DNA from: Thermoplasmata archaeon
GTDB lineage: Archaea; Thermoplasmatota; Thermoplasmata; Thermoplasmatales; Thermoplasmataceae
DNA length: 20,935 nucleotides
Direction: 5' to 3'
NCBI GenBank assembly: GCA_021810575.1
Contig: JAJZIN010000011.1
Location: 1 to 20,935 of the forward strand
Under the pieces are notes generated by a model. The model worked only from the letters and a program-made list of their open reading frames with translations, made no database searches and was not told where the DNA came from. Made by a program: the position numbers and the translations under genes. Below, piece after piece: positions 2,387 through 17,762 of the stretch (the first letter of the stretch is position 1; each line of letters opens with the position of its first letter).

Positions 2387-3355
2387 TTGGAATCAAAAAA
2401 TTTTTTAATTATAGAAACAGAGATAGGACGGTATAATTTCGCTAGGGAAGAGCTTTTATGTACGTTTGAAAGAGCATCTTCTATCGCAGTAAGAGAAATG
2501 GGTCAGGGAATATTCATTGCAGAGGGATTTCATGATCTGAATGGACTTGCATTTGTAAAGAGAGCTGGGCAAGTATTAGGTATAGCAGAACAGTTTTCAG
2601 ATATTTCCAAAGTTTTACTACCAGAAGGGAGGTTCTATGTAAGAGTCATAGACTCACATAAGTGCCACGGCACATCAGAGGAAAAGGAAATAGGGCAACT
2701 GCTGGGAGGAATAGGACGTGTATCCTTTTCAAATCCTGATTTTGTAGTTCTGGCCTACCATCTGGATAAATGGTACATATGCACGCAGAAATACTCAAGA
2801 AATAATCTCGAAAAGGCAAAAAGAAAGGCTCCCCTTAGACCATTTTTCTCACCTGTTTCCATGGATCCAGCCTTCGCATCTTTCCTGATTAACATGGGTT
2901 ATTTTCCACATGGTTCAACACTTCTGGACCCTTTCTGTGGAGGAGGTGGAATTCTTATGGAGGCAGGTCTAAAGGGATATAGGGTAGAAGGCATTGACAT
3001 TCTCAACGAAATGGTAATCGGAGCCAGGATGAATCTCAAGTACTTTGGAATCAGAGAATTCAGTATAATTAAAACGGACTTTTTGGAGTTTCAATCTGAT
3101 AAAAAATATGGTGGAATAGTAACGGATTTCCCATATGGAAGAAATTCTCACATATCAAAGGAGAGATCAGAATTTTACTTCAGGGCTGCTCAAAAGATGT
3201 CAGAATTCCTTGAAACGGGGTCCAGAGCATGTATCGTAACAGATAATATGGAAAATTTAGAATACTTCAAAAATTTCTTTGATATTGATATCATCTTACC
3301 ACAGAAAGTGCATAAATCCTTAACAAGATACTTCACAAGAATGATAAAAAAATAA
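2387..3355 (+). CDS. trmG10: tRNA (guanine(10)-N2)-methyltransferase, Trm-G10 type
   Basis: An S-adenosylmethionine-dependent enzyme expected to mono- or dimethylate N2 of guanosine 10 in tRNA. The N-terminal half (about 1-160) is compatible with a ferredoxin-like plus THUMP RNA-binding module. The C-terminal half is a Rossmann methyltransferase with motif I LLDPFCGGGGILMEA (about 179-193) and motif X-like residues LRPFFSPVSMDPAFASFLIN before it. The catalytic motif IV, usually DPPY(G), reads DFPYG (247-251): the first proline is Phe. The only in-frame start after the upstream stop is TTG at 2387. It follows rpoL by 15 bases and ends four bases from the stop of the convergent regulator gene. 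Confidence 0.85.
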   Translation: MESKNFLIIETEIGRYNFAREELLCTFERASSIAVREMGQGIFIAEGFHDLNGLAFVKRAGQVLGIAEQFSDISKVLLPEGRFYVRVIDSHKCHGTSEEKEIGQLLGGIGRVSFSNPDFVVLAYHLDKWYICTQKYSRNNLEKAKRKAPLRPFFSPVSMDPAFASFLINMGYFPHGSTLLDPFCGGGGILMEAGLKGYRVEGIDILNEMVIGARMNLKYFGIREFSIIKTDFLEFQSDKKYGGIVTDFPYGRNSHISKERSEFYFRAAQKMSEFLETGSRACIVTDNMENLEYFKNFFDIDIILPQKVHKSLTRYFTRMIKK

Positions 3356-3359
3356 ATAA

Positions 3360-3938
3360 CTATCCGAGAAAGTCATCAACAATTTTCCCGACAATCTCAA
3401 CCGGGATGCCGGTGGTTCTAGAAACCTCTTCTTCATTCAGCGTTTCCAGATATTCTACCAATATTTGTCTGATAAACCCTTCCTTTACTCTTTCTACAAC
3501 ATTCTTACGCAATAGCTGAATTATATTATTTTTCTCTTCAACAAGACTCTGCCTCTCTTTCATTAGGGCATCCATTTTTTCATTTATTTCTTTTATTCTT
3601 TCTATGGAAACTTCATTCTGAATACTTGGCTCACTCTTTTCAGCCAGGTCAAATTTTGATACCTGAATGAAAGTTGGTGTATAGTCTATGACGAGTGTAG
3701 AAAATCCTGTTGGCCTGTAGACTTTTCGAGGTGGACCAATGGAGCTGGGAGTTACTCCCATAGAAAGGATTAGATTTGCGTGTTCAAGTATCTCCAGTTG
3801 TTTATTGATCGCCTGTTGTGAAATTCCCAAACTCTTACTTATTTCCAAGCCGTATGACTCTTCCATAAGGAGTTTTTTTAAAATGGCCCTCCTGGTTGAA
3901 TTTTCCATTATGGACAGGAGGGTATCAATGTCATTCAT
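3360..3938 (-). CDS. ArsR/Phr-like winged-helix heat-shock regulator
   Basis: Probably a DNA-binding repressor of the heat-shock response. Residues 1-75 form an ArsR-type winged helix: ENSTRRAILKKLL, then SYGLEISKSLGISQQAINKQLEILEHANLI with recognition helix about 40-52, and a wing containing GPPRKVYR. The layout, including the ...PRKVY...DYTPTF segment after the wing, resembles Phr of Pyrococcus and HSR1 of Archaeoglobus. A predicted coiled coil (about 105-150, rich in Glu, Lys, Leu) would serve for dimerisation, and a short C-terminal helical piece follows. The gene starts one base after the hsp20 stop, so it is translated from the same mRNA. The palindrome in front of hsp20 (4501-4521) is a likely operator, which would make the unit autoregulated. 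Regulatory role is inferred from context and family. Confidence 0.8.
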   Translation of the reverse strand: MNDIDTLLSIMENSTRRAILKKLLMEESYGLEISKSLGISQQAINKQLEILEHANLILSMGVTPSSIGPPRKVYRPTGFSTLVIDYTPTFIQVSKFDLAEKSEPSIQNEVSIERIKEINEKMDALMKERQSLVEEKNNIIQLLRKNVVERVKEGFIRQILVEYLETLNEEEVSRTTGIPVEIVGKIVDDFLG

Positions 3939-3939
3939 C

Positions 3940-4488
3940 TTACTCTATCTTCACTGATTTTCCTTTCTCGTTTCCCTTTCTCACAAGCTCCAGAGTCAGA
4001 TCCAGTATTCCGTTGGTGAATTTTGCCACAGCACTCTCAGGTTTTACTGGCTCTTCCAGGGCGACATTCTTGAAGTACTTCCTTGAACCTTCGGCAACAT
4101 TTATTGTTACCTCATTCTCGGATACTTTAAGATCTATATTTTCTTTGGATATGCCAGGAAGCTCAAATGTCAGGTAAACCTTGTCCTTGTCATAGTTGAT
4201 ATCCGTGAGTGGTTCTCTGACCTCAGTCTCACCGTCTTTGTCGCTCAGAGAAGGTCTGTTAGGAATGTTTCCAAACTCCTGGAAGGATGGTTTTCCATCC
4301 GGACCAACTTTATAGCTGAATCCATATACATAGGGTCCAATCATGTGTTCATCAGAATTCTTAATCATCCTTTCCATTATTCTTCTCATCCTATCATTTA
4401 CCTTATCAAAGTCAAATCCAAAGTCTTCGAAGAAATCTCCGAAGAAGTCGTCATCCCAGTCATCATCTTTTCTTCTTCTTACTACCAT
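3940..4488 (-). CDS. hsp20: Small heat shock protein, Hsp20/alpha-crystallin family
   Basis: An ATP-independent holdase chaperone that forms large oligomers and keeps unfolded proteins soluble. The alpha-crystallin domain spans about 91-172 and has the family signature AKFTNGILDLTL (155-166), preceded by VYLTFELPGISKENIDLKV. The C-terminal V-K-I (179-181) is a short version of the IxI motif that docks on neighbouring subunits. The N-terminal arm is unusual: after a basic MVVRRRK it is a run of Asp, Phe and Trp (8-28), followed by Met/Arg-rich helix. A GAGGT Shine-Dalgarno site sits seven to eleven bases before ATG 4488. It is the first gene of a two-gene unit with the regulator. Confidence 0.93.
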   Translation of the reverse strand: MVVRRRKDDDWDDDFFGDFFEDFGFDFDKVNDRMRRIMERMIKNSDEHMIGPYVYGFSYKVGPDGKPSFQEFGNIPNRPSLSDKDGETEVREPLTDINYDKDKVYLTFELPGISKENIDLKVSENEVTINVAEGSRKYFKNVALEEPVKPESAVAKFTNGILDLTLELVRKGNEKGKSVKIE

Positions 4489-4500
4489 CTTAATTACCTC

Positions 4501-4521
4501 TTGTCAACCATTAGTTGACAA
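4501..4521. promoter_or_regulatory. Perfect palindrome, probable operator of the hsp20-regulator unit
   Basis: TTGTCAAC (4501-4508) and GTTGACAA (4514-4521) are perfect inverted repeats around CATTA. The site touches the hsp20 Shine-Dalgarno sequence on one side and covers the predicted transcription start about 25 bases from the TATA-like box at 4538-4546. Its core AAC-N5-GTT has the layout that I recall for the Archaeoglobus HSR1 motif (CTAAC-N5-GTTAG). A protein bound here would block initiation. Confidence 0.7.
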
Positions 4522-4537
4522 CTATGTATTACTTACT

Positions 4538-4546
4538 TATATTTAA
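4538..4546 (-). promoter_or_regulatory. TATA-like box for hsp20
   Basis: On the minus strand the sequence reads CTTAAATATAAG, with TTAAATATA as the likely TBP site. It is 25 bases from the middle of the right-hand part of the palindrome and about 54 from the hsp20 ATG, leaving a leader of roughly 30 bases. Confidence 0.5.
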
Positions 4547-4589
4547 GTTTTTTGAATCGAATAATATCATTTGCATTATAAAGGTAGCA

Positions 4590-15487: not shown

Positions 15488-17731
15488 TTAATTGTAGAGT
15501 CCGGACTCCTCTACCTGTTTTCTTCTTTCCTTGACACTTTTTCCAATATTCTTTGCAAGATTCTCATAGAAGTTAATTACTTCCTGATCCACAGAGGGTT
15601 TTATGACCTTCATTGCCTTTGTAAAGTCACTGTTTGAGACCAGAGATGCTTCAGGATCATTCCTGTATGCCATCATTCCAGCTTCACGGCACAGATTTTC
15701 AAGATCAGCACCAACATATCCGTCTGTTGCCTCTGCGATCTTTTGCAGGTTTATATCCTTGTCAAGAGGCATATTTCTGGTATGCACAAGAAGGATCTTC
15801 AATCTTGCCTCCTTGTCAGGTGGAGGTATATAGATCATCTTATCAAACCTGCCAGCCCTTATAAGTGCACTATCCAGAATATCAGGTCTGTTTGTGGCTC
15901 CGATCACAACGACGCCCTGCAGTACTTCAACACCATCCATCGAGGTAAGCAATTGATTAACTATTCTTTCTGTAACTCCAGAATCTCCGCCTCCGCCTCT
16001 TCTTGGAGCTATGGAATCTATTTCATCAAGAAAAACAATTGAGGGTGCTACCTGTTTTGCCTTCTTGAATATTTCCCTGACAGCTTTTTCACTCTCTCCT
16101 ACCCATTTGCTCAGAACTTCTGGACCTTTAACGGAAATAAAGTTTGCATTACTCTCATTGGCCACAGCCTTGGCAAGTAGTGTTTTTCCTACCCCTGGGG
16201 GTCCGTAGAGAAGGAATCCCTTTGGTGCCCTTATGCCGAGTTTCTTGAAAACTTCAGGCTTAAGTAACGGTAGCTCAACACTTTCTCTTAATTCCCTTTT
16301 AACATCTTCCATTCCCCCGATATCATCCCAGTGTATATCGGGGATTTCTGCCATAACTTCCCTAAGACTGCTGGGCTCTATCAGCTTCAGCGCTTCCCTG
16401 AAATCATCCTCAACCACAGCCATTCTTTCCAGTATATCGGTTGGTATTGGCTTATCCAGATCTATATCTGGAAGATATCTCCTGAGAGCATTCATTGCAG
16501 ATTCCCTTGCAAGCGCGGCAAGATCAGCACCAACAAATCCATAGGTCATATCTGCAATTTCATCCAGGAATTTTGATTTTGAATCCTCATCCATGTTGAG
16601 TGGCATTGCCCTTGAATGAATTGTTAGAATCTCTTTCCTACCTTTCTTATCTGGAACACCGATATTTATCTCCCGGTCAAATCTTCCGGGTCTTCTTAGT
16701 GCAGGATCAACTGCATCTATCCTGTTGGTGGCTCCAATCACAATCACGTGACCTCTTTCCTTTAGACCATCCATAAGTGTCAGCAGCTGGGCGACAACCC
16801 TCCTTTCTACCTCTCCCTGCACCTCTTCCCTCTTTGGGGCTATGGAGTCTATTTCATCTATGAAAATTATAGATGGTTCTTTTTCTTCTGCATTCGTGAA
16901 TATTTCGCGTAGTTTCTGCTCACTCTGTCCATAGTATTTGCTCATTATCTCTGGTCCGTTTATTGAAAAGAAATTGGCCCCTGATTCATTTGCAACCGCT
17001 CTTGCAATTAATGTCTTTCCAGTTCCTGGCGGACCAAACAGCAGTACACCTTTTGGCGGTCTTATCCCCAGTCTTTCAAATAGCTCAGGGTGTTTGAGTG
17101 GAAGTTCTATTATTTCTCTGACTTTTCCAAGCTGATCTGATAACCCGCCAATATCTTCATAACTTATTCTTGAAACGTCCTCAAGTACCTCAGAAGCTGG
17201 TTCTTCTCTTATTTCAATCTTTGTAGTTTCCCCAATTTCAATGGGTACCTTTGGTGGTACAGTCTTTACAACCTTGAACAGTAGACCTGAGTGTCCTGCC
17301 AAAGTAAGTCCTGGAACACTTATATTATCCTGTTCTATCATTGGCCTCCTAATGAGAGCCCTCTGAACAAAATCATCTATACCTTCACCAAACTTTAATC
17401 TCTGCTCCTTTCTAATAATTGGTGCGAGAACAACTCTTGTAGCTATATCGGTCTTCACTTTTTTGACCTTTACTTTATCACCGATTGAGGCACCACAGTT
17501 ATTCCTCATTACACTGTCAATCCTCACAATCATCTTGTTCTCATCTTCAGGTCGTGCTCTAAAAACTCTTCCCACAGTTCTCTTGGACTTTTCTATTTCT
17601 ACTACATCTCCAATTTCCACATTTAACTGGAACCTTGAATCCTCATCCAGTCTTACTCTGGACATCCCAGGGTCAGTAGAATTAGCCTCTGCAACCCTTA
17701 AGGTGATTCCTTCCATATTAGAACCTGACAT
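15488..17731 (-). CDS. vat: VCP-like AAA ATPase VAT (Cdc48/p97 homolog)
   Basis: A hexameric ATP-driven unfoldase that pulls substrates through its pore, preparing them for the proteasome. Residues about 1-180 are the N domain: a double-psi barrel ([20 protein letters not shown] at 11-30 is nearly the Thermoplasma VAT N-terminus) and a four-stranded clam. D1 has Walker A GPPGTGKT (233-240), Walker B IIFIDEID (288-295) and a sensor ATNR. D2 has GPPGVGKT (510-517), IVFLDEID and ATNRPD. Arginine fingers sit in RRPGRFD and RAGRFD. The C-terminal helix is basic. I choose ATG 17731 because a TATA-like box is 25 bases upstream and homologs begin near here; an in-frame GTG at 17752 would add seven residues inside the TATA box. 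Confidence 0.95.
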
Positions 17732-17751
17732 ATGTCTATAAGGACAAATCA

Positions 17752-17762
17752 CTATATAATTT
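17752..17762 (-). promoter_or_regulatory. TATA-like box for the VAT-PRC operon
   Basis: The minus strand reads AAATTATATAG here, centred about 25 bases before ATG 17731, as expected for a leaderless transcript. This argues against the in-frame GTG at 17752, which falls inside the box. Confidence 0.5.

Follow-up and report, generated by a model that had tools for sequence, protein, structure and literature searches.

Does a small heat-shock gene in the archaeal order Thermoplasmatales, which is followed by the gene of a winged-helix regulator and preceded by a palindrome, belong to a self-controlled heat-shock switch, and how does such a switch relate to those of other archaea? In reviews, Phr and HSR1 are the sole heat-shock regulators named for archaea (PMC9133787), and the kind of switch that these two stand for is already known. 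The gene pair considered here lies in a stretch of 20,935 nucleotides from a Thermoplasmata archaeon (contig JAJZIN010000011.1 of assembly GCA_021810575.1), which we refer to as the window. Based on comparisons with related sequences, we consider it very likely that the pair is a heat-shock operon of the HSR1/Phr type that regulates itself.

The unit and its promoter in the window

The unit lies on the minus strand. Its first gene, hsp20 (3940-4488), encodes a small heat-shock protein of 182 aa, recognized by NCBIfam (NF041800, archaeal Hsp20; 168.3 bits against a cut-off of 140) and Pfam (HSP20; 31.4 bits). The second gene (3360-3938, minus strand) encodes an HSR1/Phr-like winged-helix regulator of the ArsR type with 192 aa and no cysteine, which was detected by Pfam (HTH_5, the ArsR-type helix-turn-helix; 24.1 bits) and by a profile that also finds Phr. 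As the original prediction had it, the two genes are one base apart: position 3939 alone stands between the stop codon of hsp20 and the ATG of the regulator, a gap that suggests coupled translation. A convergent frame downstream ends at 3355, and the unit thus consists of two genes. VAT/cdc48 (15488-17752, minus strand) lies where the original prediction had it, outside the unit and about 11 kb off, and is without the operator described below; the mechanical GTG start of its frame is found upstream of a likelier ATG start.

In the sense of the transcript, a TATA-like box (CTTAAATA; 4540-4547, minus strand, read from 4547 to 4540) is followed by the operator GTTGTCAAC-TAATG-GTTGACAAG, a 23-mer that runs on the minus strand from 4522 down to 4500, then by a Shine-Dalgarno-like AGGT (4496-4499, minus strand) and by the hsp20 start codon ATG (4488-4486, minus strand). 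Within the operator, positions 4501-4521 form a perfect dyad, TTGTCAAC-N5-GTTGACAA. Its left half-site GTTGTCAAC (4514-4522, minus strand) overlaps the transcription start, which the position of the TATA box predicts at about 4516-4517; the right half-site GTTGACAAG occupies 4500-4508 (minus strand). These coordinates place the operator between the TATA-like box and the Shine-Dalgarno site, with its left half over the predicted start, and the perfect inverted repeat that had been proposed there is indeed present. It is the sole match to the dyad in the window at up to three mismatches. Shuffled windows contain a mean of 0.14 such loose matches, and at least one in 13 of 100 cases; when the window sequence is taken alone, the repeat exceeds chance just modestly.

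Conservation, symmetry and spacing of the operator

The case for a real operator comes from the relatives. We found the regulator in 110 of 117 genomes of the order, and 108 of these loci have an hsp20 frame immediately before it on the same strand, which either overlaps with the regulator frame or is at most 56 nt away from it. The remaining two regulator frames (L046, L110) are located at contig ends in stretches with no hsp20, and three further loci are cut off (L050, L093, L109), so that the DNA upstream is visible in 105 loci. Of these, 104 have the core AAC-N5-GTT before hsp20, compared with 4-8% of dinucleotide shuffles of the same stretches. By family, the core is found in 70/70 loci in the family of the window, in 3/3, 17/17 and 14/14 loci in three others, and in 0/1 in a fifth. 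This one locus (L107) has no form with a 5-base spacer; by eye, a similar repeat with a 6-base spacer, TATCAAC-TTATTA-GTTGATA, can be seen before its hsp20. A lack of conservation of the palindrome in related genomes would have counted against the original prediction, and on this point it stands: conservation rules out a chance origin of the dyad, and the operator can be regarded as real.

In the family of the window, the 70 operator sites represent 45 distinct 23-mers. The pattern GTTn3AACn5GTT fits 63 of the 70 sites exactly, as it does the operator in the window, and the extended form GTTn3AACn5GTTn3AAC fits 41 of the 70. The sites are also symmetric in their variable positions. At the fourth pair of the dyad, the left base is T in 36 sites, A in 33 and G in one, and the pair is complementary in 70/70, with 34.1 expected if the two sides were independent; the third pair is complementary in 54/70, with 39.0 expected. 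Where position 3 varies, it tends to do so together with the base opposite it in the dyad (A-T in 10 of the 16 sites that have A) and not with its partner within the half-site, which is C in 69/70. On the tree, each side of the varying dyad pair changes at least five times, while paired changes amount to two independent pairs on well supported branches and five on all branches; as there are two independent pairs on the well supported branches, a formal pair test is without power.

The spacing to the promoter is likewise fixed. Of the 70 family loci examined, 65 had a good TATA match and were scored, and in 58 of them the distance from the TATA centre to AAC is 27-28 nt. In archaea, the TATA centre and the transcription start are about 26-27 nt apart, so that the dyad should cover the start. 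The site of Phr at hsp20 is likewise reported to cover the transcription start (PMC9133787), and Phr resembles the arrangement proposed here in both its target and the placement of its site.

Given its position and symmetry, the palindrome might alternatively act as RNA, with a stem-loop that hides the Shine-Dalgarno site at low temperature. If transcribed, the repeat would indeed fold (-9.3 kcal/mol at 37 °C, -4.4 kcal/mol at 60 °C), and the symmetric changes of the dyad would preserve an RNA stem as well. However, transcription from the predicted start, inside the left arm, would leave a weak residual stem of -2.5 kcal/mol at 37 °C and 0 at 60 °C, and the predicted stem leaves the Shine-Dalgarno site unpaired. 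Furthermore, in the loci outside the order that have cdc48 in view (see below), it is the distance to the TATA box that is kept, at 28-32 nt in 22 of the 28 that were scored, whereas the distance from the site to the start codon varies from 16 to 64 nt. On account of the folding, the unpaired Shine-Dalgarno site and the TATA-fixed spacing, we rejected an RNA thermometer as the main reading and consider it highly unlikely.

The position of the dyad also bears on the direction of control. In one proteome study, Phr and HSR1 are described as inducing Hsp20 and CDC48 (PMC5852551), and the regulator could accordingly be imagined to activate hsp20 at heat instead of repressing it. Yet a site over the predicted start, beyond the TATA box, is in a blocking position, and it is from such a site that Phr represses, as HSR1 is thought to do (PMC9133787). 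We therefore deem an activator very improbable and proceed with repression as the preferred reading.

The regulator and its relatives

Among NCBIfam families, the regulator matches SurR (NF047699; 54.3 bits) and Phr (NF053602; 33.3 bits) best, both far under the respective cut-offs of 250 and 320 bits; in the family of the window, 0/21 genomes exceed the SurR cut-off. A profile built from 42 regulators of the order, including that of the window (set A1), finds Phr (2p4w) at 3.5e-24, SurR at 3.6e-20 and cdc48-linked regulators from Archaeoglobi at 1.3e-20 to 1.2e-10. By this profile search, the regulator is a homolog of the HSR1/Phr family, arCOG01684, which according to work on Methanonatronarchaeum takes in both Phr and HSR1 (PMC5852551). 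In that organism, the arCOG01684 member AMET1_0853 and the CDC48 protein AMET1_0852 are heat-induced (PMC5852551). The AlphaFold model of the regulator has a mean pLDDT of 91.3, and Phr of Pyrococcus furiosus (2p4w) is its best match in the PDB and thereby the closest solved structure, at TM-scores of just 0.53-0.60. In a tree, HSR1 and Phr group together (98/87) and the branch of SurR is very long; support is weak at the deep forks that decide where the Thermoplasmatota proteins belong, and the tree does not firmly join them to HSR1 and Phr.

At closer range, the window belongs to a Cuniculiplasma-like member of the order: the regulator is 98% identical to its counterpart in the nearest genome (G001), and 88% and 66% identical to matches from Cuniculiplasma sp. 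The median length is 198 aa in the family of the window and 149 aa in another, while regulators outside the order have 208-244 aa. The short regulators of about 149 aa (family f3; six in set A1: L074, L076, L078, L081, L087, L089) are without C-terminal helices, and the core is kept in 17/17 of their loci. In several genomes there is also a second regulator frame, distant and weakly matched, with about 200-220 aa (G043:C17, G044:C6, G095:C3, G078:C34, G079:C41, G030:C8, G037:C54, G038:C18).

The match to SurR, a homologous regulator of the Thermococcales, raises the question of whether the protein senses sulfur or redox state instead of heat. SurR is its best NCBIfam match, and the pattern that 63 of the 70 family operators fit exactly, GTTn3AACn5GTT, is the long motif of SurR (PMC8595942), which the operator in the window thus shares. 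But SurR relies on a CxxC redox switch, and the regulator in the window has no CxxC; we looked for this motif in the 42 A1 sequences and found it in 0/42, and 35/42, including that of the window, are devoid of cysteine altogether. The score of 54.3 bits is, moreover, far under the SurR cut-off, and the neighbours differ: SurR is found next to hydrogenase or sulfur genes, the regulator next to chaperone genes. We rejected membership in SurR for the absence of CxxC, and consider a sulfur or redox sensor of the SurR type very unlikely. A heat-shock regulator of the HSR1/Phr kind thus remains the preferred reading.

This reading gains from the relatives beyond the order. In the phylum, 173 of 292 genomes, order members included, contain a match to the regulator. 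From those outside the order, we picked 60 stretches for spread and dropped three shorter duplicates (L198, L200, L215). In 52 of the resulting 57 loci, the core is found within 110 bases before the regulator start chosen by a script (3.9% in shuffles). Among the five misses, two have the core downstream of the script-chosen start, as seen by eye (L213, L238), one has it with one change (L239), and two have no core (L221, L237). Downstream of the regulator, 36 of the 57 loci have a cdc48 gene on the same strand, and 24 of these 36 have hsp20 downstream as well, in stretches that vary in length, with the region beyond cdc48 where hsp20 could lie out of view in many. One locus has the order cdc48, hsp20, regulator, one has a thermosome gene after the regulator (L212), and 19 have no cdc48, hsp20 or thermosome gene in view. 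In a set of loci with a longer regulator (L218-L220, L222-L227, L229, L230, L236), the core lies a few bases before the start codon, and neither hsp20 nor cdc48 is in view.

Likewise, in six of six Archaeoglobi genomes, which were found via a uridylate kinase scan and searched with A1, a dyad precedes the HSR1-like gene and cdc48 follows it; these stretches are short and leave hsp20 out of view. The dyad reads CTAAC-N5-GTTAG in five of them, which is the published HSR1 motif (PMC9133787), and TTAAC-N5-GTTAG in one (L272). As the core precedes the regulator even where this is the first gene, the site goes with the regulator, not with hsp20 alone.

The comparison with HSR1 that had been drawn from the window is therefore strengthened. 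HSR1 of Archaeoglobus fulgidus is likewise of the ArsR type, is autoregulated, and has an AAC-N5-GTT dyad before its operon and hsp20 downstream in that operon (PMC9133787). Because the dyad and the linkage to hsp20 and/or cdc48 that marks the HSR1/Phr family are shared, the link to HSR1 holds by both site and neighbours. There are differences, however. The HSR1 operon starts with the regulator and has hsp20 downstream, whereas the unit in the window starts with hsp20 and has the regulator second; cdc48 follows the HSR1-like gene in Archaeoglobi but is far from the unit in the window; and the bases outside the core (TCAAC/GTTGA in the window, CTAAC/GTTAG for HSR1) are not those of an HSR1 operator proper. 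Phr differs in the site itself: the elements TTTA, TGGTAA (at the start site) and AAAA described for Phr (PMC9133787) are absent from the operator in the window, and a search by eye for TGGTAA in 4486-4560 found none.

Targets, mechanism and origin of the switch

Phr is a regulator of many targets, including VAT1, and in P. furiosus its sites precede both this gene and hsp20 (PMC10746257). By contrast, the regulator in the family of the window seems to act mainly on a single target, the operon that it belongs to. Sites with at most one mismatch to the operator are present in 57 of 77 family genomes; of the other 20, 14 have an hsp20 site with at least two mismatches, in three no regulator was found, in two no hsp20 is in view and one is cut off. 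Besides the hsp20 promoters already seen, 16 operator-like places were fetched and read. One is the missing hsp20 promoter of a genome (L168 in G088), six are other sites that we have taken as chance, and nine have the same sequence, TTATCAAC-N5-GTTGACAA, at the end of a repeated element (L153, L154, L158, L160-L165; three of them in G074). The frame of this element, about 400 aa long, is intact in six copies and partial or interrupted in three (L162, L164, L165). It probably encodes a transposase; this is a guess, and Pfam gave a single sub-threshold match, to an InsA zinc ribbon, in one of two copies tested. The operator-like end might titrate the regulator, or be due to chance.

The original prediction had proposed to look for the palindrome before other heat-shock genes too, and among the promoters sampled it was supported for hsp20 alone. 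In a sample of family genomes, the best full-site scores before VAT (29 loci), thermosome (27), GrpE (24), second hsp20 (16) and proteasome genes (30) were 9-13 of 18, like those of shuffles of these stretches (8-14 of 18), whereas 69 of the 70 family hsp20 operators score 14-18. The bare core occurs in 2/16 second-hsp20 and 2/30 proteasome stretches, and other promoters may carry degenerate or half sites.

From the gene pair, the symmetric operator, its conservation and its fixed distance to the TATA box, we infer binding, repression and heat release along the following lines. A dimer of the regulator would bind the 23-bp dyad, which covers the predicted start, and would block RNA polymerase. 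Under heat, or another stress that damages proteins, the dimer would come loose from the dyad, and the freed promoter would allow hsp20 and the regulator to be made together from one transcript; newly made regulator would then restore repression and close the switch. Hsp20 might also feed back directly on the regulator, which is an attractive idea. In a cold-shock proteome of Cuniculiplasma, two Hsp20 proteins were down by just 17% and 4% (PMC7285479), which says little about heat.

The likeness of the operators suggests a common origin, for which we offer a joint reading tentatively, our judgement being nearly balanced with a slight lean towards doubt. One ancestral code of approximately (G/T)TTn3AAC-n5-GTTn3AA(C) may be common to SurR and to the heat-shock regulators of both Thermoplasmatota and Archaeoglobi. 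In this scenario, a switch composed of operator, regulator, cdc48 and hsp20 would be the older state, and SurR would be a copy that was recruited to sulfur sensing and kept its DNA code. In the Thermoplasmatales, the operon would have been turned round, with hsp20 first, and would have shed cdc48 to become a one-target loop, while the C-terminal part of the regulator would have shrunk.

In a literature search that covered few subscription journals and had RegPrecise outside its scope, we saw no paper on this Thermoplasmatales operator, its order-wide occurrence, a gene order that is reversed and has no cdc48, a seemingly single target or the match of a heat-shock operator to the SurR motif. 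For the acidophiles of an entire order, the analysis yields a concrete operator and gene order, both strongly conserved; it ties their unit to HSR1 by site and neighbours, and suggests one code common to heat-shock and SurR operators. With a protein of 192 aa and one short DNA site, recognition and heat release thereby become testable.
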